DNA of 51,457 nt, taken from Candidatus Methanoperedens sp. Lineage in GTDB: Archaea; Halobacteriota; Methanosarcinia; Methanosarcinales; Methanoperedenaceae. This document shows positions 5,177 to 19,990 of this stretch, in pieces (the stretch's first letter is position 1; each line of letters opens with the position of its first letter). Made by a program: the position numbers and the translations under genes. The notes under the pieces were generated by a model. That model ran no database searches and had not been told where the DNA came from. It saw only the letters and a list, made by a program, of their open reading frames with translations. The DNA lies in contig JAPMTR010000080.1 of NCBI GenBank assembly GCA_026552975.1, forward strand, positions 1 through 51,457, given 5' to 3'.

Positions 5177-5485
5177 TTATTCCAACATACTTTTCAATTC
5201 AGCAATGTTCGCTTTTATCTGATCTTCCAATCCATCAATTTTGCCCATTATGACCTCAGGTTTTTCATAAGCTATCTCTTCATACTCAATCTCCTTGTAC
5301 TTAGATATCGAGAGGTCATATCCATTTTCTTTTATCTCGCTAATCGGAACAAAGAAACATTTGCCTTTTTTATCTACCGGGTTAGCCTCATACCGCTTTC
5401 TGAAATTTCGAATGATATCAGGAATATCACCTTTGCCGTCAATGAAATTGCGTTTATCATCCAGGGAATAGCCGTCTGCGTCCAT
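5177..5485 (-). pseudogene. hsdM: HsdM C-terminal fragment (interrupted type I DNA methylase)
   Basis: These 102 codons encode the end of a type I N6-adenine methylase: DADGYSLDDKRN, then CFFVPISEIKENGYDLSISKY, then an acidic helical tail. The front of the same gene is at 11197-12405. Its last native residues VWFYD are exactly what should precede MDADGYSL here, so the halves are one gene cut by the element between 5484 and 11222. An in-frame stop sits just upstream of this fragment, so only an isolated 102-residue tail could be made. Confidence 0.88.
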
Positions 5486-5496
5486 ATCATATAGCC
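5484..5496 (+). other. attL-like junction of the inner element
   Basis: ATATCATATAGCC matches the 13-bp sequence at 11210-11222 (ATGTCATAGAACC) at 10 positions in the same orientation. Both lie at the hsdM Tyr-Asp codons where the two gene halves meet. Just inside the element is TTAAAAAGTAT, matched by TTAAAAAGCAT on the inner side of the other junction. Together these look like an attachment core and arm site. Confidence 0.65.
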
Positions 5497-5556
5497 TTTA
5501 AAAAGTATGGTTCTATTTTATATACCATAAAAACCATATTGGGTAATGGTGAAATT

Positions 5557-6675
5557 ATGTTACTTGAAAAATTCATAGAGACATTAAAAGCGAAAGGGCG
5601 AAGTAAGAGCACATTTGATATATTGCAGAATTCCGTTATTCTTTGTGAGAAATGGTTAAAAAAGCCATTAGAGGACGCTAAGTATGAGGATATAATCAAG
5701 TTTATAGAACACATTAAGGTTAAGGGCATGGTTTTGGAAGGCGATATCCGAAAAGAGCCTTTAACAAAAAATTCCATCCTAACGGTAGAAAATAAGCTTT
5801 TACAGTTTTATAAATTCTGTTTTGATGAGACAGATGATATAAAATATAATAAAATGGTCAAGAAGCTAAAAAGCATCAAGGTAGATAAACCTAAAAACGG
5901 TATTAGACCGCAGGACATCCTTTTTCCAGAGGATATTAAAAAACTTATCAATGTGGCTACATTAGAGCGGGATCGGTGCCTTATTGCAGTTCTTTATGAG
6001 AGTGGTCTAAGACTGGGTGAGCTTCGAGCATTGACCAATGACATGGTTGAAATGAACGAACACACCCAGGAAGTTACTTTCCATATACCGGATCAGGAAG
6101 GATGTAAAACCGGCGCAAGATCAGTATTATGTGTAGAAGTTTATAGTTATGTTCAAGAATGGCAAAAGTGTAATCCTGATAATCATTTCATGCCAATAAG
6201 TGAAAGTGGGATTCAGAAAAAAATAGATAAACTATTCGAACGAGCAGGAATCAAAAAGCCGTCAAATCCTCATATGTTCAGGCATTCAAGTATTACAAAT
6301 GCTGTGATTATGAAGATGCAGCCAAACCAGATTAGCATGCGTTACTGGGGAATTTCTAACAGCAATATGCTTTCGGTCTATCTTCATTTGAGTGAACAGA
6401 TCGTTAATTCAGGATACAGAGACGCCAAGGGCATGGGTGAAAACAGCAACGGTAAAACCGTGATAAATCCTCTTGCGTCCAGGTGCGTTGAATGTGGGCG
6501 ATTAATCCAGGCAGGCAGCTTGTGTAAGACATGCGATGATAATAAGAAGCTAAAAACAAGAATTGATGAACTGGAACAGCAGCGTAAGGATGATAAGGCA
6601 CTCAATGAAGACATGATCAAGGCCATGATTGAAGCGAGGGTAAACGAGATGATGAAAAAGAGCAATCCTCTTTAA
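5557..6675 (+). CDS. int: Tyrosine recombinase (archaeal integrase) with C-terminal zinc ribbon
   Basis: A 372-residue phage-integrase-family protein. Its N-terminal SAM-like core-binding domain (about residues 1-85) is followed by the catalytic domain with Arg in ESGLRLGELR (about 152), His and Arg in NPHMFRHS (about 239 and 242), Trp in MRYWGIS and the nucleophile Tyr in SVYLHLSEQ (about 275). A C-terminal zinc ribbon (CVECG...CKTC) and a coiled tail follow, as in many euryarchaeal integrases. The gene lies 60 bp inside attL, so it very likely catalysed insertion of this element into hsdM. ATG 5557 is preferred over TTG 5539 because GGTGA precedes it. It overlaps the convergent 6672-7325 gene by 4 bp. 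Confidence 0.92.
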   Translation: MLLEKFIETLKAKGRSKSTFDILQNSVILCEKWLKKPLEDAKYEDIIKFIEHIKVKGMVLEGDIRKEPLTKNSILTVENKLLQFYKFCFDETDDIKYNKMVKKLKSIKVDKPKNGIRPQDILFPEDIKKLINVATLERDRCLIAVLYESGLRLGELRALTNDMVEMNEHTQEVTFHIPDQEGCKTGARSVLCVEVYSYVQEWQKCNPDNHFMPISESGIQKKIDKLFERAGIKKPSNPHMFRHSSITNAVIMKMQPNQISMRYWGISNSNMLSVYLHLSEQIVNSGYRDAKGMGENSNGKTVINPLASRCVECGRLIQAGSLCKTCDDNKKLKTRIDELEQQRKDDKALNEDMIKAMIEARVNEMMKKSNPL

Positions 6676-7325
6676 TATTCATCATCTTTAATATTCAAGA
6701 CATTATCCAAATCTTCTTTTTGTATATCTAAATGCATTCTCTTATACAACAGCATAGTAACCACTTTTTTATCAAGACCAATATCATCAATAAGCTTAGT
6801 CAAATCATTGATCAGCGGTAGAAGGATAAATTGGAGTTCGTTCTTAAAATCCCTTTTGCGTTTTTCTTTACCAGGTTCTTTCCCATAATCCTGTAAAGTT
6901 AAAATTAAACGAGTTTCAATGAACTTTAAAGCGATATTTAGAGCAATTGCCTGAGATATTTGCAGATCGTCCGTTTTACCTTCAGTTTTCAGATTCAAAA
7001 GTATATCTTTGTGAGATGTAAGAGTCGTGGTTATTAGTTCAAAGTTGAGCTTATCAAATCCATCCGTACCCGGAGAAGAAACGATATGTTCCCAGTACTC
7101 TTTTTTTTCCTCTTGATTAAATAGCGGTTGTTTGGAATATTCTACTTTTTTAATACCTTCTTTATGTTGTCTTTCTATCAATCCATTTGCTACCATATAA
7201 TCAAGCGCAGCCACAATAGTTGAATTACTCATACCGGGGAGCTTTTTGGCAATTCTATTGTATCGTAATGGTGAACCATCAGCGGGAAGAACATTATACA
7301 CTTGCAGGCATTTTTCAGTTTTCAT
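6672..7325 (-). CDS. Winged-helix transcriptional regulator-like protein
   Basis: The 217-residue protein begins with a winged-helix-like region: YNRIAKKLPGMSNSTIVAALDYMVANGLIER (about residues 22-52) reads as a recognition helix plus wing. A long, mostly helical charged C-terminal domain follows, and I do not recognise it. It is transcribed away from the small-ORF operon starting at 7404. The shared 78-bp gap contains CTACTGTAAGTAG (7358-7370, arms CTACT/AGTAG), a possible operator. The likely role is an element repressor, by position and fold only. Confidence 0.6.
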   Translation of the reverse strand: MKTEKCLQVYNVLPADGSPLRYNRIAKKLPGMSNSTIVAALDYMVANGLIERQHKEGIKKVEYSKQPLFNQEEKKEYWEHIVSSPGTDGFDKLNFELITTTLTSHKDILLNLKTEGKTDDLQISQAIALNIALKFIETRLILTLQDYGKEPGKEKRKRDFKNELQFILLPLINDLTKLIDDIGLDKKVVTMLLYKRMHLDIQKEDLDNVLNIKDDEY

Positions 7326-7403
7326 ATTATCACATTTTAAAATAATTTTACTTTTTACTACTGTAAGTAGAGTATATTTTCTTAAAAGTTGTTAAAGCTA
7401 TCT

Positions 7404-7589
7404 ATGGAATACACAACCAGCCTTATCAGGCTTCCACAGTGGGCAACCACTGAAATAGAGAAATACGCACAGGAAAAGGGTTTAAGATTTGCGACCGCTG
7501 TGCGCTGTATAGTTGTTGAACGATTAAGAGAGATTGCACCGGTCACAGCCTGCAAGCAAGAGACCGGAGCAGCCAGCCCACAACTTTAA
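7404..7589 (+). CDS. Small RHH-like DNA-binding protein
   Basis: A 61-residue protein whose first 40 residues (YTTSLIRLPQWATTEIEKYA, then an alanine-rich helix up to VERLRE) resemble a ribbon-helix-helix unit: a strand followed by two helices. ATG 7404 is chosen because the strand begins right after it. It opens a plus-strand run of small element genes and is divergent from the winged-helix gene. A regulatory role is inferred. Confidence 0.55.
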   Translation: MEYTTSLIRLPQWATTEIEKYAQEKGLRFATAVRCIVVERLREIAPVTACKQETGAASPQL

Positions 7590-7604
7590 GGAAGTGATGC
7601 CAGC

Positions 7605-7724
7605 ATGAGTATAAAGGAATTTCTGGATAGTAAACCTTCGCTTACTCAGATTCTTGAATTTGTGGAATCGGAAGCAGAACGGATAACGAAAGAGCGCAAG
7701 AAGCAGGCAGCAGGGATGAAATGA
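7605..7724 (+). CDS. 39-residue hypothetical element protein
   Basis: A short ORF (MSIKEFLDSKPSLTQILEF...) rich in charged helical residues, starting 15 bp after the previous stop. Its stop overlaps the ATG of the next ORF by 4 bp (ATGA). No family is recognised. The overlap on both sides is the main support that it is translated. Confidence 0.45.
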   Translation: MSIKEFLDSKPSLTQILEFVESEAERITKERKKQAAGMK

Positions 7725-7885
7725 AAGAAAAAGAAAGATCCTCCCTGATTACCAGTCAAGGAGAACAAAACAAACTAAGCACATACAACTATGGCTTTTT
7801 TGATATTAAATGCTTTGTAGATGCGGAGTTCAGCGAATCCCCGTCAGCCGGATGGCAATTCGTGAAATATTGTATGAGAGGTTAG
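7721..7885 (+). CDS. 54-residue hypothetical element protein
   Basis: Begins in the ATGA overlap with the preceding ORF. The N-terminal half is polar and charged; the second half (YGFFDIKCFVDAEF) looks like short strands. Nothing is recognised. Translational coupling is inferred from the overlap. Confidence 0.42.
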   Translation: MKEKERSSLITSQGEQNKLSTYNYGFFDIKCFVDAEFSESPSAGWQFVKYCMRG

Positions 7886-7970
7886 ATTTATGGTAATTGA
7901 TTTTAACGCATTGAAGGTATCATTAGTAATAATAATATAACTAATATGATAAATATAATGTGGGGATAAT

Positions 7971-8312
7971 ATGGCTGAAAATGGTTATTGTTGTTATATT
8001 CCTGATTGTGTGATAAGTGGCCTATCTGATATGACCTCAATAAAATGTATGTATTTCATTTTAAAGAAGTGCAGAATGGCAAAACAAACTGAATCCATCT
8101 CTCTATCAAAAGATGATGTTAAAGGGTTGAGTAAAAAGTCTTTTTATAACGCTATAAAAAAACTGGAGGAAGATAAATGGATCTATGCTGATAAAACAAA
8201 TTGCCATATTTACAAAATAACATTGATTGAGAACTATCATTTCACCAGGTTTGATTTAGATCACTTGAAAGGAAAAAACAAATACGCAGATAATGGAAGT
8301 GTGACACCATGA
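7971..8312 (+). CDS. Winged-helix-like small protein
   Basis: 113 residues. The middle (SLSKDDVKGLSKKSFYNAIKKLEEDKWIYADK, about residues 43-74) has the helix-turn-helix plus wing pattern of replication or transcription factors of archaeal elements. It is preceded by an 85-bp AT-rich gap and its stop overlaps the next ATG by 4 bp. It could be a transcription regulator or a replication-associated protein; I cannot tell which. Confidence 0.5.
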   Translation: MAENGYCCYIPDCVISGLSDMTSIKCMYFILKKCRMAKQTESISLSKDDVKGLSKKSFYNAIKKLEEDKWIYADKTNCHIYKITLIENYHFTRFDLDHLKGKNKYADNGSVTP

Positions 8313-8449
8313 AGGGAATATCTCCAGAACTCCAGGAAGCAATAAAGACAACAGCGCCCATTTATTGCAGATTGCTATATCAAAATATCAGAATGTGTAA
8401 AATTGATACATGCAGGTTTTACCCATGTAAACGAGAGGCGACACCATGA
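8309..8449 (+). CDS. 46-residue Cys-containing element protein
   Basis: Starts in an ATGA overlap with the previous gene and ends in another with the next. Four cysteines (YCRLLYQNIRMCKIDTCRFYPC) sit within about 22 residues, suggesting a small metal-binding or disulfide knot. No family recognised. Confidence 0.45.
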   Translation: MKGISPELQEAIKTTAPIYCRLLYQNIRMCKIDTCRFYPCKREATP

Positions 8450-8601
8450 CAGAGCAGGAGACCATAGAAGAAATGAAAGTCCTTATCCTGCAAGGTGTTT
8501 CAACTAAGGATTTAAAGAAAATGGGATACAACCAGCGCATTATCAGTGAAAATTACATGCACACATTACGAGAGCGAGATCAGGCCAGGGGCAAGCAATG
8601 A
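8446..8601 (+). CDS. 51-residue hypothetical element protein
   Basis: Begins in the ATGA overlap. The sequence IEEMKVLILQGVSTKDLKKM followed by GYNQRIISENYMHTLRER looks like a short helix-turn-helix unit, so DNA binding is possible. Its stop again overlaps the next start by 4 bp. Confidence 0.45.
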   Translation: MTEQETIEEMKVLILQGVSTKDLKKMGYNQRIISENYMHTLRERDQARGKQ

Positions 8602-8846
8602 AACCAAAACCAGCAGCAAATAAAAAAATCATATTAAAATTTATGGATTGCAGCGTATCACTTGAAGGTACAAGGAATATTGAGACCAGGGCAATTAAAC
8701 TATTATCTCATCTTGTCCAGGATCGGATTAGATTATATGAAGTCCTGCAAGAACTGGAACACGAGGATGATGACAGCAGCGCAAGACCAAAGGCAAAGAA
8801 GGTTAAGCCAGACATCCAGCAGGACTTCATGAGAGGATACTCTTAA
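8598..8846 (+). CDS. 82-residue hypothetical element protein
   Basis: Last gene of the coupled run, starting in an ATGA overlap. It has one strand-like stretch (KIILKFMDCSVSLEG), a long helix to about residue 55 and a charged tail. No family recognised. Confidence 0.5.
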   Translation: MKPKPAANKKIILKFMDCSVSLEGTRNIETRAIKLLSHLVQDRIRLYEVLQELEHEDDDSSARPKAKKVKPDIQQDFMRGYS

Positions 8847-9009
8847 CTTATCCTTTCATTATTCTTTATCATCTCATCACGCACGTTCTAATTATTATAT
8901 TTGAATCAGTCGGAAAAATCCTACTGTACCTAATTGACTGGGGTATTAACTACTACAACATTGGCAGAGCATAGCGATGAGAAGTAAGTTTTAAAAGTAT
9001 TGCGCATAG

Positions 9010-9027
9010 TTGTACATCAATGTACAA
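9010..9027. promoter_or_regulatory. Inverted-repeat operator candidate
   Basis: TTGTACAT-CA-ATGTACAA is a perfect 8-bp inverted repeat with a 2-bp centre, in the 250-bp non-coding gap before the 9096 RHH gene. An RHH or AbrB dimer of this element could bind it. Confidence 0.5.
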
Positions 9028-9095
9028 AGTCATTCAAAGTAAGTCCTTAGATAATACATAATTACATTTATGTTATCATGGGATAATTATTATCT

Positions 9096-9245
9096 ATGGC
9101 AATGAAACAAATTAAGTTTAGTATGGAGAATGAGGACGTTAAGCGTTTAATAGATAATGCATCAAATAATAATATATCTTCATCTCAGCTTGTCAGGTGG
9201 GTAATGCAGCAATGGTTAAAGGGGCGCGTTATTGTTAAGACTTAA
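9096..9245 (+). CDS. 49-residue ribbon-helix-helix protein
   Basis: The pattern KQIKFSMENEDVKRLIDNAS, then NNISSSQLVRWVMQQWLKGR, is a short strand, a helix, a turn with serine N-caps and a second helix, as in CopG/Arc-type RHH repressors. It lies 70 bp after the 9010-9027 inverted repeat, a plausible autoregulatory site. It was placed from the sequence directly, as it is too short for usual gene calling. Confidence 0.55.
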   Translation: MAMKQIKFSMENEDVKRLIDNASNNNISSSQLVRWVMQQWLKGRVIVKT

Positions 9246-9378
9246 TAACATAGAGCAAATGTTCATTGGTTAATGCATGGTTTTGTATTGTATTGTCAAT
9301 ACTCATATACAACCGTATTAAATTTGTCGCCTTCTTACCTCACATTACTTTACATTCATGTTTCTCACCAAAAAGAGA

Positions 9379-9591
9379 TTATTTATTTGATCCTGCTATT
9401 TTTGTTTCAAGAACAATAACGCGCTTATCCAGGTCTTTAAGTTCTGTTCTCATTTCTTTGACTTCCTGCTTAAGCTCATCTACCTCATCAATGACATAAT
9501 CCAGCTTTTGAAGGATCCGGCCAGCTTTAAAACTAATGCCTATAATGCCTATTATCGCACTGATAACGGGGACTAAATCCAGCAGTGGCAT
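9379..9591 (-). CDS. Small membrane protein with coiled coil
   Basis: A 70-residue protein with one hydrophobic N-terminal segment (PLLDLVPVISAIIGIIGISF) followed by a heptad-like acidic/basic helix (EVDELKQEVKEMRTELKDLDKR). This is the plan of small membrane-anchored coiled-coil proteins common in archaeal viruses and plasmids. It follows another tiny membrane gene on the same strand, 0 bp apart. Confidence 0.5.
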   Translation of the reverse strand: MPLLDLVPVISAIIGIIGISFKAGRILQKLDYVIDEVDELKQEVKEMRTELKDLDKRVIVLETKIAGSNK

Positions 9592-9702
9592 TTAGTTTAT
9601 TCCTATGATTTTAGCGATAACGTAAAAGACCAGGAGTAAAACGCTAATCCATATCAGGATATCTGAATAATCATATTTCTGGATCTTCTCTATTGTGGTC
9701 AT
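9592..9702 (-). CDS. 36-residue single-span membrane peptide
   Basis: Starting at ATG 9702, the peptide has a charged head (MTTIEKIQKYDYSD) and a single membrane helix (ILIWISVLLLVFYVIAKIIG). It immediately precedes the coiled-coil membrane gene. A longer frame begins at 9801, but the upstream part reads like promoter DNA, so the short form is preferred. Confidence 0.42.
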   Translation of the reverse strand: MTTIEKIQKYDYSDILIWISVLLLVFYVIAKIIGIN

Positions 9703-9948
9703 AATCTTTACTTGATTTACAAGGTATTTAACCTTTAACGTAATAGCCTTTAAACATATAGAAATATTTACTTTTTCAGATCTCAAACCATTTCTTACCA
9801 TAAATCACATTGTATAGCCTGATTTCATGGGTATTAAACCATTGACCACATAGAGATCATACGCTATAATGCATATTTGAAAACAATTCATATAATAAAT
9901 ATAAATAAGCGTAGCCGGATTATCTTAAAATGATTATGAAAAAAGAAG

Positions 9949-10179
9949 TTATGGCGAAGAAGACACTTTTTCAATGATCAGGCGACCATTCTTTGAATCT
10001 ATCTTAACATTCACTTCATCTTCATGCTTGAAAGGGAAAGCACTATCTCTTGCTACTTCACTGGGGATATAAACGAAATACTTATCATAGAGCTTTCCCT
10101 TGCTCTTGCTTGGCCGGTTCATTAACTTACTTTTCCCTTCAATCATCTTTGTATCGCTGAGTTGTATAACTTCATTCAA
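9949..10179 (-). CDS. AbrB/SpoVT-like DNA-binding protein
   Basis: A 76-residue protein whose second half (YFVYIPSEVARDSAFPF...DEVNVKIDSKNGRLIIEKV) has the swapped-hairpin AbrB signature of archaeal regulators and antitoxins. TTG 10179 is the likely start because GGTGAT precedes it at normal spacing. It is divergent from the 10303 gene. The shared region and its own first codons carry three copies of a GTTGTATAAC-type motif, which suggests autoregulation. Confidence 0.62.
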   Translation of the reverse strand: MNEVIQLSDTKMIEGKSKLMNRPSKSKGKLYDKYFVYIPSEVARDSAFPFKHEDEVNVKIDSKNGRLIIEKVSSSP

Positions 10180-10217
10180 ATGGTATCACCTTTTCCTTAT
10201 GCTGACTTGTATTACTG

Positions 10218-10257
10218 AGTTGTATAACAATCTATTTATAGGCATTGTTACACAACT
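10218..10257. promoter_or_regulatory. Divergent operator: inverted repeat around a TATA-like box
   Basis: AGTTGTATAACAAT (10218-10231) and ATTGTTACACAACT (10244-10257) form inverted arms matching at 13 of 14 positions, flanking CTATTTATAGG. A third half-site GAGTTGTATAAC is at 10159-10170. The likely ligand is the AbrB-like protein encoded next to it. Confidence 0.6.
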
Positions 10258-10302
10258 GATATTAACATCACTAAAAATGTGATGATAAAAGGAGGAAATA
10301 AC

Positions 10303-10695
10303 ATGAAACAAGCATTCGACCGGGCAATGGAATCAGAAATAATAAAATCGTGCGCTGAAGAGGTTTTCGGTGTGTGGGAGAAACACGATAAACCAGAGAC
10401 AGACCCAACGACAACAACAGGCGTAGCCGGGTTAAGACAGTACTTATCTGATATTCCAGATGAATGGACAGATTACGATGTATCCGCCTACAACGGGTTA
10501 ATTGATGACCTATACGCTATGATAGATGTGTTCTGTATCGGCTCAGGGATATGGTACACTCACTATTACGCAGATGAAAACTGGGATGAATATTCAGACG
10601 AAGCAGAGCGGATCATCAAAAATTACATAAACGAAAATTTATGGGATCGTTTTTGTAATTTACATGACTGGAAAGAGCCAGGGACAGAGCTATAG
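10303..10695 (+). CDS. Acidic 130-residue hypothetical protein
   Basis: The ATG at 10303 follows a strong AAAGGAGG site. The protein is strongly acidic and rich in Asp, Tyr and Trp (YDVSAYNGLIDDLYAMIDVF, HYYADENWDEYSDEAER). Strongly acidic small proteins can be DNA mimics, but no family is recognised. It is controlled from the operator region at 10218-10257 shared with the AbrB-like gene. Confidence 0.6.
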   Translation: MKQAFDRAMESEIIKSCAEEVFGVWEKHDKPETDPTTTTGVAGLRQYLSDIPDEWTDYDVSAYNGLIDDLYAMIDVFCIGSGIWYTHYYADENWDEYSDEAERIIKNYINENLWDRFCNLHDWKEPGTEL

Positions 10696-10827
10696 ATGAG
10701 GGAGAAACAAGTTAATTATTTTTCTCTTTCTCTTTTTTATCTTAAATATTGCTCAGGATGCGATATGAGAGGCGATCGTAAAAAAGTAATGGTAGAATAC
10801 CCACGAAACCGTTTAATCAAAGTGTAA
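10696..10827 (+). CDS. 43-residue hypothetical protein (weak)
   Basis: An ORF starting immediately after the previous stop, with CSGCDMRGDRKK in its middle. The tight spacing favours translation with the acidic gene. Short length and no recognised family keep this tentative. Confidence 0.3.
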   Translation: MREKQVNYFSLSLFYLKYCSGCDMRGDRKKVMVEYPRNRLIKV

Positions 10828-11195
10828 ATAGTAGGTTATGGCTAATTTTAAGGATAATATCTTTGGTGTGCAGTTGAAAATGCAAGTTGTGCCAGATGTA
10901 GGAGTTCAAGATTATTATCTCTTATAGAGATTGAATAGAGGACATTTCTTTCTATTCTTGCATTTCTGACAATTCATAAATTACTATATTTATCTTAATA
11001 TTTTTATTTGTATCCATGCGAACTATCCAGAAATTGAGAATTAATTGATGATTTTAATAAGATTAACAATTATAATATCATTTTTATATCCCAGACTATT
11101 ATCATTTTTTAATAAAATAAAAATGGAGACTCCTTATTTCTATTGGTTCATTTATAGTCGTTGTGGTTACTCATACCTATAATATAAAACCAGAC
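10828..11195. other. AT-rich non-coding right end of the element
   Basis: About 370 bp with no convincing gene, only tiny frames, and runs of A and T. It ends at the arm sequence ATTAAAAAGCAT (11196-11207) beside the attachment core. It may hold integrase or replication binding sites. Confidence 0.5.
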
Positions 11196-11196
11196 A

Positions 11197-12405
11197 TTAA
11201 AAAGCATATATGTCATAGAACCAGACCTTATCGGTTTTATCCCCTTTTATAAAAACAAGAACGGCGGTTGATACGCCTGCATACGGTTTGAAAACACCGG
11301 AAGGCATGGATATGACAGCTTCAAGCTGGCATTTTTCTAGCTATATCTCTCGCAGCTTTTTGTGCGCATTTGAAGTCCCGAACAACACCCCGTCAGGCAC
11401 AATGACACCGCATTTTCCGCCGATCTGGAGAAGGTTCATCATTCTTTCAACAAAAAGGAGTTCGGTCTTGGTCGTGCCGACCGTCAGGTGGTCATTTATA
11501 TCGCTTTTATCAATACTTCCTTTAAAAGGTGGATTGGCAAGCACCACGGTATATTTGTTCTCTTCTGTGAATTGCTTGGATAAAGTATCTACCAACTCAA
11601 TTTTAGGAGTTGCAATACCGTGAAGCACCATGTTCATGAGGGATATTCTTACCATCGTGGGCTCAAAGTCATAGCCGTAGAAAGAACTCCATAACATTGT
11701 CCAGGCGTTCTTATCTGATATTTTATCGCCATACAGCCCATAATATTTCCCCTCATCGTCCTCCTGGACCATATCAGGGCTGGTATGCTTCCTGATTATG
11801 TATTCATAGGCATTGATAAGGAAACCCGCAGTTCCGCATGCAGGGTCGCAAATCCTGTCCCCGATATCAGGGTCAATAAGCTCCACGATCATTCCGATTA
11901 TGTGCCTGGGCGTCCTGAACTGGCCGTTCTTGCCCGCGCTCTTAAGCTCGGAGAGCAGGTATTCGTAGATATCTCCCTGCGTGTCCCTGTTCTGGGCTGT
12001 AATATTTAATTCATCAAGGATTGCGACCGCTTCCTGCAGGAGCGAAGGCTTGGGAATGATAAAAACCGCATCTTTCATGTGCTGTGAGAAGAGCGTTTTT
12101 TCCCCATCGTGTATGTTCTTGATGAAAGGGAACACAATGTCTCTTACATGAGTGAGCATCTTTTCAGCAGGATAATGCTTCCAGATTGACCACCTGCAAT
12201 CTTCATTTGCCTCAAAAACAGATTTGTATGGCTGTTTTTTCGCGTGCGCCTTCTTCTGTTCAGCCACATCCATATCCTCAAGGCGCTTCATGAAGATCAG
12301 GTATGACATCTGTTCGATGGATGAGAGGGGATTGGATAAGCCGCCGCTCCAGAATTTATCCCAGAGGGCGTCTATTTTGGATTTTAATTCAGGGGCGAGT
12401 CGCAT
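11197..12405 (-). pseudogene. hsdM: HsdM N-terminal part: type I DNA methylase, amber-interrupted and cut by the element
   Basis: The N-terminal HsdM helical domain is followed by the methylase core with DPACGTAGFLINAYEYI (SAM binding) and ANPPF (the N-x-x-F catalytic motif of N6-adenine methylases). After KKLREI a TAG codon (11343-11341) stops the frame. The same frame continues perfectly as [33 protein letters not shown] and DKVWFYD. It then runs into element DNA and ends after IYAF. Joined to 5177-5485 the gene would be about 500 codons, normal for HsdM. In type I systems HsdM with HsdS methylates the target and is also needed for cleavage. Reading TAG as pyrrolysine is possible, but a Leu TTG to TAG mutation explains it more simply. 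Confidence 0.88.
11210..11222 (+). other. attR-like junction of the inner element
   Basis: ATGTCATAGAACC, direct imperfect repeat of 5484-5496. To its right the hsdM coding sequence resumes; to its left is element DNA with TTAAAAAGCAT. The two differing Asp codons (GAT/GAC) around the core are synonymous, which would allow recombination between non-identical sites. Confidence 0.65.
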
Positions 12406-13817: not shown

Positions 13818-14357
13818 TTATAATTCCCCTCTGAACGCCTTCTGCATCAGGGTGCTGAACAAGTCCTCTATCTGCTGCTTTGACTGGTTCTGTGATTGGC
13901 GCATGGCTTCGATTTTCTCGACGATGCGGGCGAATTTTTGCTGGAGGGGGAGGGGGATTTGTGACTTTTCTAATAATTGAAAGTGTCTCGCATAACCTTT
14001 ATCTGGCAGTTGAATTGCTCGTACAAAGTAATAAAAAAGCTTCGGATGGAATACTTTTTTAGGCTTCATTACCTGTATACCATCTGCACCCGCTATAAAA
14101 TCAAAATCAACATACTTGATAGCTTTAGTATGATCACCAAAAATTATAACCGGAGACTCACAACAAACTTTTAGAGCTTCCTTATCGGTGTATCCTCCCA
14201 TAAACGATTGACCTTGGTCTATAACTGGAAACTTACCTACTTCTTGATACTCACTTTGTTTCAATTTCTTTCCAGTTAATGGCACTTTTTCAATTACATC
14301 TTCTACTTTCTTCCATTCCCACCCCTCCGGCAGCGCGCGCCGCTCATGAGCCTCCAT
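13818..14357 (-). CDS. hsdS: Type I restriction specificity subunit, single target-recognition domain
   Basis: 179 residues: an HsdS-type start (LPEGWEWKKVEDVIEKVP), one target-recognition domain (about residues 20-125, with IDQGQSFMGGYTD and GDHTKAIKYVDFDFIAGADG), then the conserved dimerising helix IPLPLQQKFARIVEKIEAMR. The tail ends DLFSTLMQKAFRGEL. A normal HsdS has about 400 residues and two such domains, so half is missing. Half-size HsdS can work as dimers, but here the DNA just upstream is a repeat-derived sequence (14369-14513), so truncation is equally likely. It would direct HsdM/HsdR to the DNA sequence. Confidence 0.8.
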   Translation of the reverse strand: MEAHERRALPEGWEWKKVEDVIEKVPLTGKKLKQSEYQEVGKFPVIDQGQSFMGGYTDKEALKVCCESPVIIFGDHTKAIKYVDFDFIAGADGIQVMKPKKVFHPKLFYYFVRAIQLPDKGYARHFQLLEKSQIPLPLQQKFARIVEKIEAMRQSQNQSKQQIEDLFSTLMQKAFRGEL

Positions 14358-17143: not shown

Positions 17144-19990
17144 TCAAGCCTCCGCATATATTTCCTTCTCTAATACACTGCAGATGTTAATAAAATCATT
17201 CAATTCACCCTCAGTAAACATAGGCATTGGCGCATTAATCCCAAAATTCGTGAACGGCGCATCGTATAGTTCTGAATACTCTATGTGTTTTTTCTTCGAA
17301 AAGACCGTCTGCACAGTCCTGATAAAATTAAGCTGGTCTGCGTTATAGCGCCTGCTATTCTCGATTATATAAGTATCGAAAGCATCCTTGATCCTCACAG
17401 CCGGTTCAGGGAATTTGTATAAACCCAGGATATTCTTGACGAACTGCACCAGCGTGCCCTTATTTTGAGTATAAACTTTCTGCAAAACGTCCTCAGTAAT
17501 ATACAATTCAGGATTGTTAAGCGTCAATTCAAGGTCGCGAAGGTCAGACTCTGTCAACATCTCATTATTCTTGATCTTCAAAATAGCAGGATGCTCATCA
17601 GCCAGCTTCTTTATCCTGTCTTCAACCTTCTTCTTGTAAACCTTCACATACTCCTGCTTTGCATCAGGTCCAAACTCTATAAGTGTCCTTTGCTGGATCA
17701 TATCATCCATGTCAAGAACAATAGTCTTTCGAGGCTCTGATGCCATATATTTCATCATTTTTGCAAGCTCCGATATCAACATCTGAGAATCCTCAAAAGA
17801 AACATTCTCCCAGAACCTGTTTGAAAGCACTTTGTCCTTGAATGCAAGTTTTGGTTTGATCACATTCAACTCTTCAGGTAGACAGTCCACCATCTCTCCT
17901 ATCTTTGGTTTTAATCGCTCCACCTCCTCCCTATCCCCCTGCAAAATCGCCACACCCAGTTTTTCACATTTAAGCGTGAAAGACGCCTCATTCAGGTTCA
18001 CATCCTGTTTGAATCTCATAAGCGGCGTGATCTTCTTCTTCAGGAATTCAACCGGATCAAGTCCAACATTATCCCAGAGCTTCGGGGATAGTGCTTTCTC
18101 AACATCCCTCAGGCTCTCCCGAACGCTCACGGAATCCTGTGGCAGCGATGCAATATCTTCAATGAGCTTCTTTTTAATAACCTCGGCTTTCTCCACATCG
18201 CCGACATTCATGCAATGCTCAAGCTGCCTGAGCCTGATAAGGAAAATCCTGTTCGTAATCGCTTCCCCCGACTCCTTCTGGTCGCCCTCAGGATGCATAT
18301 CCCAGTACTCGAAATTATCCCAGAAATCGAATACCTTGAAATAAACCTTTTTCCCATCAGGCAGCCATTCCTTATGTTTGCAGGTAGTATCAGACCGCGT
18401 CCCTCTTCCCAGCATCTGCCAGAACTTGATCCTTGAAAAAACAGGCTTGGCAAAAACAAGATTGCAGACTTCGGGGACATCAATGCCCGTGTCCAGCATA
18501 TCAACGGAAATCGCTATCCTTGGCAGCGATTCTTCCTTGAACTCTTTGATCGAAGCCTGAGCTCGTGGGTCTTCTGAGACGATCACACGCGTAAGGCGTC
18601 CTTTATATTCTGGATACAGTTTTTCAAAAGCTTCCCACAGTCTTTTTGCATGCATTTTTGAGATAGCAAATATAATTGTTTTTGCAGGGAGATTTCCCGA
18701 TTGATCAACAAGGCAATTATCCATGAATTCCCTTGCAATAGCCTCGCTTGTCCCTTTTACAGCCACCTTTTTCTCAAGATCGGTTCCTTCAAAATTGATC
18801 TCAAACGGATCGATGCCCTCACCTGATAACCTGTTTATCTCGCCGACCGGCAGATCCGGTGTTTTGATACCTTCGATCTGGAAATGAGTCCGAGCGCCCG
18901 ATATGTTCTTCCTGAAATCACAAAGCACGCCATCCCTTACAGCTTCCTCATAATCATAAAGCGCTGTAGCAACTTTATTTTCACAGCCAAAGAACCTGAA
19001 TGTATCCCTTTCGATAAAATCAGCAGGCGTTGCTGTAAGACCAATTTGTATCCCGTCAAGATACGTGAATACGTCCTTCCATTTGTTGTATATGGAACGA
19101 TGAGCTTCATCAGAGATAATAACATCAAATTCCCCTGGCGAGATCATATATTTCCCTGAACTATCCTTTTGATTATAGATCTCCATGAATGTCTGGATCG
19201 TTGAAACGTATAGCCTTGAATTCCTGTTAAAAACACCCGAGTGGATCATAGATTTTGACTCTTCAGGGAAAAACCGCTTGAATCCATCATCGCACGCCTG
19301 TTTTCGAAGCGCCCTTCTATCAGTCAGGAAAAGGATCTTCTGCGCCCAGCTCGCCTTAAAAAGCACATCTATTATCGCCATAGCGACTCTTGTTTTTCCT
19401 GTCCCTGTTGCCTTCACAATAAGCGCTTTGCGATTTCCCTTCTGGATATGCTCCAGAACTCTTTTTGCGGATTCGATACTTTTTGAGCGGTCAACAATTC
19501 TGCTATCGATCGCAAAATCAGTCAATTTCTTTCTTGCCAGACCCTGGAATCTCATCCTCTCAAGATCGCTCTGTGAAAAAAATCCTTTCACCTGTCTTGG
19601 TCCATAATGTTCTCTGTCCCAGAACCAGATCTCGTATCCATTTGATAAGAATATAAAAACATCCCTTCCCGTCTGCGCTTTAATATCGTTCGCATACTCC
19701 TCTGCCTGTTTTTGTGCTGCAAGGATGGGGTCTCGTGATGTTCGTTTTGCTTCGATAATGGCTATCGGCGCCCCAAAACTGTCAAGTTTCAGATAATCGA
19801 CATACTTACTCTCCAGGTCATTTTTCAGGGTTTCTGAGACTGTTTTATAGTTCTGGGCGCGAAAGTCCGATTGTTTTGTATCGACTTCGACAATTATTTT
19901 GCTTCTATCTCCTACGATCCACCCCTGCTCTTTGAGCATACAATCGATCCTTTGTTTTCGTGTTAAAAATTCATTAAGATCTTTGCTCAA
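17144..19990 (-). CDS. hsdR: Type I restriction endonuclease subunit HsdR
   Basis: A 948-residue motor/nuclease subunit. An N-terminal nuclease domain has FGAPIAIIEAKRTS (E-x-K at about 80-82). Walker A KATGTGKT (about 193-200) and DEAH (about 294-297) follow, then LTATP and helicase motif VI QMLGRGTRSD (about 525-534). The C-terminal region is of the EcoEI-R type. It cleaves unmodified DNA only when assembled with HsdM and HsdS. With hsdM broken, it should be silent although the gene looks intact. The start is TTG 19990, right after GAGGAGAAT. It heads the minus-strand set hsdR-mntA-hepT. Confidence 0.92.
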   Translation of the reverse strand: MSKDLNEFLTRKQRIDCMLKEQGWIVGDRSKIIVEVDTKQSDFRAQNYKTVSETLKNDLESKYVDYLKLDSFGAPIAIIEAKRTSRDPILAAQKQAEEYANDIKAQTGRDVFIFLSNGYEIWFWDREHYGPRQVKGFFSQSDLERMRFQGLARKKLTDFAIDSRIVDRSKSIESAKRVLEHIQKGNRKALIVKATGTGKTRVAMAIIDVLFKASWAQKILFLTDRRALRKQACDDGFKRFFPEESKSMIHSGVFNRNSRLYVSTIQTFMEIYNQKDSSGKYMISPGEFDVIISDEAHRSIYNKWKDVFTYLDGIQIGLTATPADFIERDTFRFFGCENKVATALYDYEEAVRDGVLCDFRKNISGARTHFQIEGIKTPDLPVGEINRLSGEGIDPFEINFEGTDLEKKVAVKGTSEAIAREFMDNCLVDQSGNLPAKTIIFAISKMHAKRLWEAFEKLYPEYKGRLTRVIVSEDPRAQASIKEFKEESLPRIAISVDMLDTGIDVPEVCNLVFAKPVFSRIKFWQMLGRGTRSDTTCKHKEWLPDGKKVYFKVFDFWDNFEYWDMHPEGDQKESGEAITNRIFLIRLRQLEHCMNVGDVEKAEVIKKKLIEDIASLPQDSVSVRESLRDVEKALSPKLWDNVGLDPVEFLKKKITPLMRFKQDVNLNEASFTLKCEKLGVAILQGDREEVERLKPKIGEMVDCLPEELNVIKPKLAFKDKVLSNRFWENVSFEDSQMLISELAKMMKYMASEPRKTIVLDMDDMIQQRTLIEFGPDAKQEYVKVYKKKVEDRIKKLADEHPAILKIKNNEMLTESDLRDLELTLNNPELYITEDVLQKVYTQNKGTLVQFVKNILGLYKFPEPAVRIKDAFDTYIIENSRRYNADQLNFIRTVQTVFSKKKHIEYSELYDAPFTNFGINAPMPMFTEGELNDFINICSVLEKEIYAEA

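Follow-up and report, generated by a model that had tools for sequence, protein, structure and literature searches.

The genome of Candidatus Methanoperedens sp. (assembly GCA_026552975.1; 2.57 Mb in 121 contigs) carries an hsdM gene, the methylase gene of a type I restriction-modification system, that is split on its Tyr-Asp-Met codons by an integrase-bearing 5.7-kb element. Gene and element lie within a stretch of 51,457 nucleotides, hereafter the window (contig JAPMTR010000080.1, positions 1 to 51,457 of the forward strand). An original prediction on this DNA had proposed the insertion and read it as a strategy against host defence. We consider it highly probable that a small element inserted into hsdM by tyrosine-recombinase site-specific recombination, the strike on a defence gene being most likely a by-product. 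A dedicated anti-defence strategy is not supported, and the insertion seems to be a further example of an event type already described, not a new way of switching defence off.

Empty Sites in Seven Sister Species Define the Element

We searched 99 genomes, the element's own included, and found seven matches to hsdM in other genomes (L037-L043; 88-98% protein identity). In all seven of these closest sister species, hsdM is uninterrupted at the insertion site. When aligned by blastn, each sister locus falls on the window as two pieces, which in six loci end at positions 11210 and 5491 and have an overlap of exactly 8 bp in the sister; L043, the seventh, differs in that chance matches carry the upstream piece 6 bp further, to 11204, and the overlap is 14 bp. 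Base-by-base comparison showed, for every sister, agreement with the upstream half as far as the core and with the downstream half beyond it. One of them, G016, has a TAA inside the matched hsdM stretch. From this two-piece colinearity, the integrated element measures 5,726 bp including one core copy (5492-11217).

The core is a direct repeat at the two ends of the element and a single copy in the empty site. Its left (ATATCATA) and right (ATGTCATA) copies are identical at 7 of 8 bases; at the mismatch, the left copy has the base of all seven sisters, and the odd base of the right copy occurs in none. Both copies cover the Tyr-Asp-Met codons of hsdM, and Tyr-Asp-Met stands at the core in all seven sister HsdM proteins. 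Pairs of 8-mers drawn at random from the window agree, one mismatch being allowed, at a rate of 0.00065; the empty sites are stronger evidence for insertion than this repeat match. These comparisons bear out the original prediction in that an integrase-bearing element splits hsdM at conserved codons and that relatives hold the empty site. The bounds first given, 5484-11222, needed correction. The 13-bp imperfect direct repeats are there as the 8-bp core plus 5 flanking bp (10 of 13 positions matching, by eye), and the matching arms correspond to the two TTAAAAAG copies (5498-5505 and 11197-11204, by eye).

An imperfect inverted repeat of 23 nt (78%; 5502-5524 against 11207-11229), one of 331 pairs in that search, links the left end of the element with the hsdM side of its right end. 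A tRNA was rejected as the target, as ARAGORN finds none within the window.

The Element Carries a Whole Tyrosine Integrase

The integrase frame is open and whole, and the protein belongs to PF00589 with the residues R-K-H-R-(H/W)-Y. In 9 of 9 aligned integrase members, the R-K-H-R-W-Y columns, which we take to be the catalytic residues, and four C-terminal cysteines are invariant. The best models and structures are of the archaeal XerA type, with a score of 91 bits against an XerA equivalog cut-off of 220. A suicidal (SSV-type) integrase was rejected because the gene is not split by integration. An AlphaFold model was middling (mean predicted local distance difference test score 74.8, predicted template modelling score 0.47) and carries no weight for our claims. 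Searching IMG/VR with the single protein gave no viral relative, and searching it with the alignment gave one 26% match. Plasmid matches came from 115 records, all below 60% identity and none covering 80% of the query, with 24-27% identity among the matches listed (20 of 115). A contig titled Ruminiclostridium (L083, VEPD01000383.1), possibly a mis-binned archaeal contig, encodes an integrase 55% identical to that of the window.

How would such an element enter hsdM? In the explanation that we favour, the 8-bp core of the element's attachment site, attP, would recombine with the Tyr-Asp-Met codons of the gene. The ends, the duplicated core and the empty site are seen in the sequences, and next to one end lies a whole integrase gene, whose product probably performed the recombination. 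Excision, a circular form, activity of the element and a preference for defence genes are hypothetical.

Two Mapped Relatives Use Other Sites

Among 60 genomes, own included, 8 of the genus encode related integrases (43-66% identical) at a total of ten further places, one match being partial. Two of the elements were mapped at both ends. In G002, the integrase (45% identical) belongs to a 39,727-bp element (G002:C1:28736-68477) inside a DUF362 gene, which is cut within its VAIKIH motif; 39.7 kb separates the two parts, which share a contig, siblings of the gene are uninterrupted, and a perfect 15-bp core stands at both ends. In G020, a tusA-like gene carries at its 3' end a 6,322-bp element (L025:2496-8831, on G020:C98) with an integrase 65% identical to that of the window; the core is 14 bp long and perfect, and the element re-supplies the stop codon of the gene. 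Further frames were noted in both elements: one of 1314 aa and rich in repeats in that of G002 (L031, L140, L141), and two in that of G020, the first resembling replication proteins (PF23343; its 25.1 bits fall short of the 27.8 required) and the second, by eye, a transposase. Two further places gave partial information: (i) for a relative in the window's own genome (C95, 56%), one side was mapped and sister similarity starts just upstream of a start codon; and (ii) in G027, the integrase directly follows the stop of a gene taken by eye for gltX.

The elements of the window, G002 and G020 all have the motif AAAAAGT on the integrase side, at a distance of 8-9 bp from the core (by eye). Comparison of motif and cores suggests that part of the att layout is common to the three elements and the core different. 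We take the disruption of a defence gene to be, most probably, a side effect of integrases that as a group use varied sites, some of them in protein-coding genes.

We also scanned related loci with the hsdM halves by tblastn. The first set comprised 35 loci, 31 of which (L005-L035, 23 distinct places) contain integrase relatives, many of them distant; a second set of 32 loci included 6 close relatives, five of them already known. No hsdM was found beside the related integrases in either set, many contigs being short and the far end of the element often out of reach. Within the first set, hsdM matches were confined to loci that represent the window or another methylase of the same genome. The original prediction had looked to the same integrase beside other hsdM halves, and these scans speak against it as far as the loci extend; its second refuting condition, the lack of an empty site in relatives, does not hold.

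Could hsdM be a secondary site, entered with the primary attB occupied or absent? We regard this as possible, if tentatively so. The core points that way, being 8 bp with a mismatch where G020 and G002 have 14 and 15 bp without one, as do the odd base of the right copy, absent from all sisters, and the fact that hsdM is hit in one case only. However, the argument draws on two comparisons, the odd base may have arisen by mutation afterwards, and 6-8 bp of identity is all that tyrosine recombinases need.

The Insertion Severs the Methylase

The uncut sister protein contains the Pfam domains HsdM_N and N6_Mtase. In the window, the upstream half runs on the minus strand from 12405 down to about 11210, where by eye the element supplies a stop codon shortly after Tyr-Asp. 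The last ~100 codons are severed and the frame is not rebuilt. Nor would the two halves join perfectly, as the original prediction had it: codon 355 of the upstream half, outside the element, is an in-frame TAG (11341-11343) where all seven sisters have Leu. Reading it as pyrrolysine was rejected, since no pyrrolysyl-tRNA synthetase in this genome exceeds the cut-off (the sole PylS_Cterm match scores 34 bits against 178). Thus, in this assembly, hsdM would not be restored by excision alone; a sequencing error at the TAG, which is conceivable, would change that.

We computed the ratio of nonsynonymous to synonymous substitution rates (dN/dS) against five of the seven sisters (L040 and L043 excluded). 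It is 0.025-0.049 for the upstream half and 0.042-0.056 among those five genes themselves; the downstream half yielded a ratio with a single sister (0.036), as dS was saturated in the other four comparisons. These low ratios argue that both losses, the TAG and the insertion in hsdM, are recent, as judged from substitution patterns. hsdR is an open frame. At 179 aa, hsdS is well short of the 383-413-aa frames in five of the seven sister loci, and its ends resemble those of the sister genes; the type I system may thus have changed independently of the element.

According to the explanation that we favour, the element would end the upstream half early and remove the last ~100 codons, and the methylase would be lost. 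Judging from how type I enzymes work, both modification and restriction should be lost through this disruption. The R subunit needs M and S, so loss of M disarms R too, which may make hsdM a tolerable target.

Alternatively, hsdM was already dead and the element landed in a pseudogene. The in-frame TAG and the half-length hsdS would fit such a history, which we nonetheless hold to be unlikely. The upstream half has a dN/dS no higher than that among the sisters, and any earlier loss would therefore also be recent; a half-length HsdS can act as a dimer in known systems; and the TAG, the hsdS change and the insertion could have come in any order.

Is hsdM a Dedicated Target?

We scanned 392 genomes, own included, with the downstream hsdM half and obtained matches in 42. 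Eleven regions with a short matching frame were compared by aligning the full sister protein, in which the Phe of the motif is residue 396. No integrase of the window's group was detected in any of the eleven (tblastn). Two start near the Tyr-Asp-Met motif: (i) G385:C16 (L122:3501-3998), an orphan HsdM C-terminal fragment from residue 394, at Val-Trp-Phe-Tyr-Asp-Met, lies beside a transposase-like frame, and a search without positive control did not find the N-half in that genome; and (ii) G106 has a degenerate fragment from residue 403 with a 24-residue gap. The fragments in G390, G303 and G423 start at residues 340-352 (G303 has another from 370) and those in G332 and G361 at residues 452-454, and in G183, G409, G298 and G451, hsdM is present as pieces flanking the break or with a frameshift. 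The orphan C-terminal fragments on G390:C40 (L116), G303:C51 (L117) and G423:C14 (L119) come from three genomes of one genus, with up to three partial hsdM copies per stretch, most starting near 340-352.

An integrase specialised for hsdM would turn restriction off by insertion and on again by excision. Such a switch is very unlikely. Likewise very unlikely is a reversible type I off-switch in Methanoperedens, with the integrase tuned to the Tyr-Asp-Met of hsdM and the TAG a sequencing error or later lineage loss. The core does sit exactly on codons that all seven sisters share, and in streptococci a different type of recombinase has hit hsdM repeatedly, as far as the accessible parts of that literature go. 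In a streptococcus, deleting hsdM raised transformation, according to the accessible part of PMC8084154, and the result shows what hsdM loss does in general. However, no related integrase stands beside hsdM in the loci scanned, both mapped relatives use other genes, and in G021 an intact hsdM coexists with an integrase of the group (54%), each on its own contig. Moreover, the TAG lies outside the element and no PylS exceeds the cut-off, so that the predicted restoration of hsdM on excision is contradicted in this genome, sequencing error aside. Any gain to the element on entry is also doubtful, because restriction acts before integration, as we reason. Nor is the strategy undescribed: both the hsdM target and its restoration by excision are already published for streptococcal integrative and conjugative elements (ICEs).

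Finally, an assembly artefact joining unrelated DNA is hardly credible even in a genome of 121 contigs, since a chimera would not give both halves of one gene, a shared 8-bp core and the same switch against seven sisters, whereas the ends, core duplication and empty sites are a signature of site-specific integration.

Several points weigh against our preferred explanation, that is, recombination by the integrase with loss of defence as a by-product: (i) the element was analysed as assembled sequence, in which excision and a circular form would not show; (ii) its core is shorter than those of G020 and G002, and imperfect; (iii) the other-side copy of AAAAAGT is weak and unlike, and the repeat is direct in the window and inverted in G002 and G020 (by eye); (iv) the far ends of many related elements were beyond the reach of the hsdM scans; and (v) G012 and G020, which hold the closest integrases, have no match to this hsdM at E<=1e-60 and may therefore not have had the target.

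Other Genes of the Element

Nine element proteins were scanned and, beyond the integrase, gave weak matches, mostly to DNA-binding kinds, or none (Table 1). No relaxase, conjugation or replication gene was recognised among the nine, nor did any of them match capsid or packaging genes, several being without a recognisable kind. A relative of the 61-aa protein was found downstream of Int in G024:C16. A small-protein pair at 9379-9711, the 70-aa protein and a short membrane-like one, has relatives in three other genomes of the genus. For the acidic 130-aa protein, the searches made gave no relative or match in support of an anti-restriction role; DNA mimicry would be a guess.

Table 1. Features of the interrupted hsdM locus and of the inserted element (window coordinates).
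Feature	Position	Strand	Basis
hsdM, downstream half	5177-5491	-	Open reading frame (ORF) reading, sister blastn
att core, left copy, ATATCATA	5484-5491		blastn, base-by-base sister comparison
Integrated element, one core copy included	5492-11217		Two-piece colinearity with 7 sister hsdM loci
TTAAAAAG motif, integrase side of left core	5498-5505	+	By eye
Tyrosine integrase, 372 aa from ATG (378 aa from TTG 5539)	5557-6675	+	Pfam PF00589, alignments, XerA-like matches
Winged-helix regulator-like protein, 217 aa	6672-7325	-	HxlR match at cut-off, others weak
61-aa protein, weak DNA-binding-like matches	7404-7589	+	Profile matches
113-aa protein, weak winged-helix match	7971-8312	+	Profile match
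82-aa protein, no match	8598-8846	+	Profile searches
70-aa protein, coiled-coil-type matches	9379-9591	-	Profile matches
76-aa MazE/AbrB-like protein, below cut-off	9949-10179	-	Profile match
130-aa very acidic protein (isoelectric point 4.2, charge -19), no match	10303-10695	+	Searches made
TTAAAAAG motif adjoining right core	11197-11204	+	By eye
att core, right copy, ATGTCATA	11210-11217		blastn, base-by-base sister comparison
hsdM, upstream half, in-frame TAG at 11341-11343	11210-12405	-	ORF reading, sister comparison
hsdS, 179 aa, about half the length of 5/7 sister loci	13818-14357	-	Sister comparison
hsdR, 948 aa, open frame	17144-19990	-	ORF reading, sister comparison

Comparison with Known Systems

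We recognised no tyrosine-integrase element in an archaeal hsdM in the open-licence literature searched, most subscription journals lying outside its scope. The insertion adds an archaeal, tyrosine-integrase case to be set beside the streptococcal serine-integrase cases. It also points to a Methanoperedens integrase group with a like att layout and different cores, partly in conserved codons of protein genes, and offers a way into the questions of how integrases switch targets and how frequently insertion costs uncultured archaea their restriction.

The accessible parts of five reports describe mobile elements inserted in streptococcal hsdM (PMC1949102, from 2007, PMC4701971, PMC7563491, PMC12587576 and PMC12942858). 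PMC12942858 reports such an insertion with transconjugants, PMC4701971 suggests excision when hsdM is useful, and serine-integrase triplets are named in PMC4701971, PMC7563491 and PMC12942858. In these portions, the streptococcal ICEs (the group A Streptococcus element 10750-RD.2 and elements of the Tn1549/Tn1806 type) likewise insert inside hsdM and disrupt it. They are bacterial, with serine-integrase triplets where named and ~50 kb where sized, whereas the window element is archaeal, with one tyrosine integrase and 5.7 kb.

Integration into coding genes is also known in archaea. The accessible text of PMC6563490 gives 14 of 68 thaumarchaeal elements integrated in coding genes, in 3'-distal regions and some of them casposons, and that of PMC8371274 gives single archaeal cases. 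The thaumarchaeal integrated mobile genetic elements, BJ1 and Msmi-Pro1 resemble the window element, as far as these portions show, in coding-gene integration, short att sites and an empty-site check. The thaumarchaeal cases differ in being 3'-distal, with the frame rebuilt in the example shown there and another enzyme used by casposons; hsdM of the window is cut ~100 codons early and not rebuilt.

As in classical non-suicidal XerA-like archaeal integrases, the integrase gene of the window stays whole. Unlike XerA, whose cut-off it misses, the protein has an extra C-terminal four-cysteine segment and helix. The closest relative mapped at both ends is the G020 element of the same genus, which has a similar size, an integrase of the same group and a like att layout but differs in its replication-protein-like gene and transposase-like frame, and in leaving the tusA-like 3' end unbroken.

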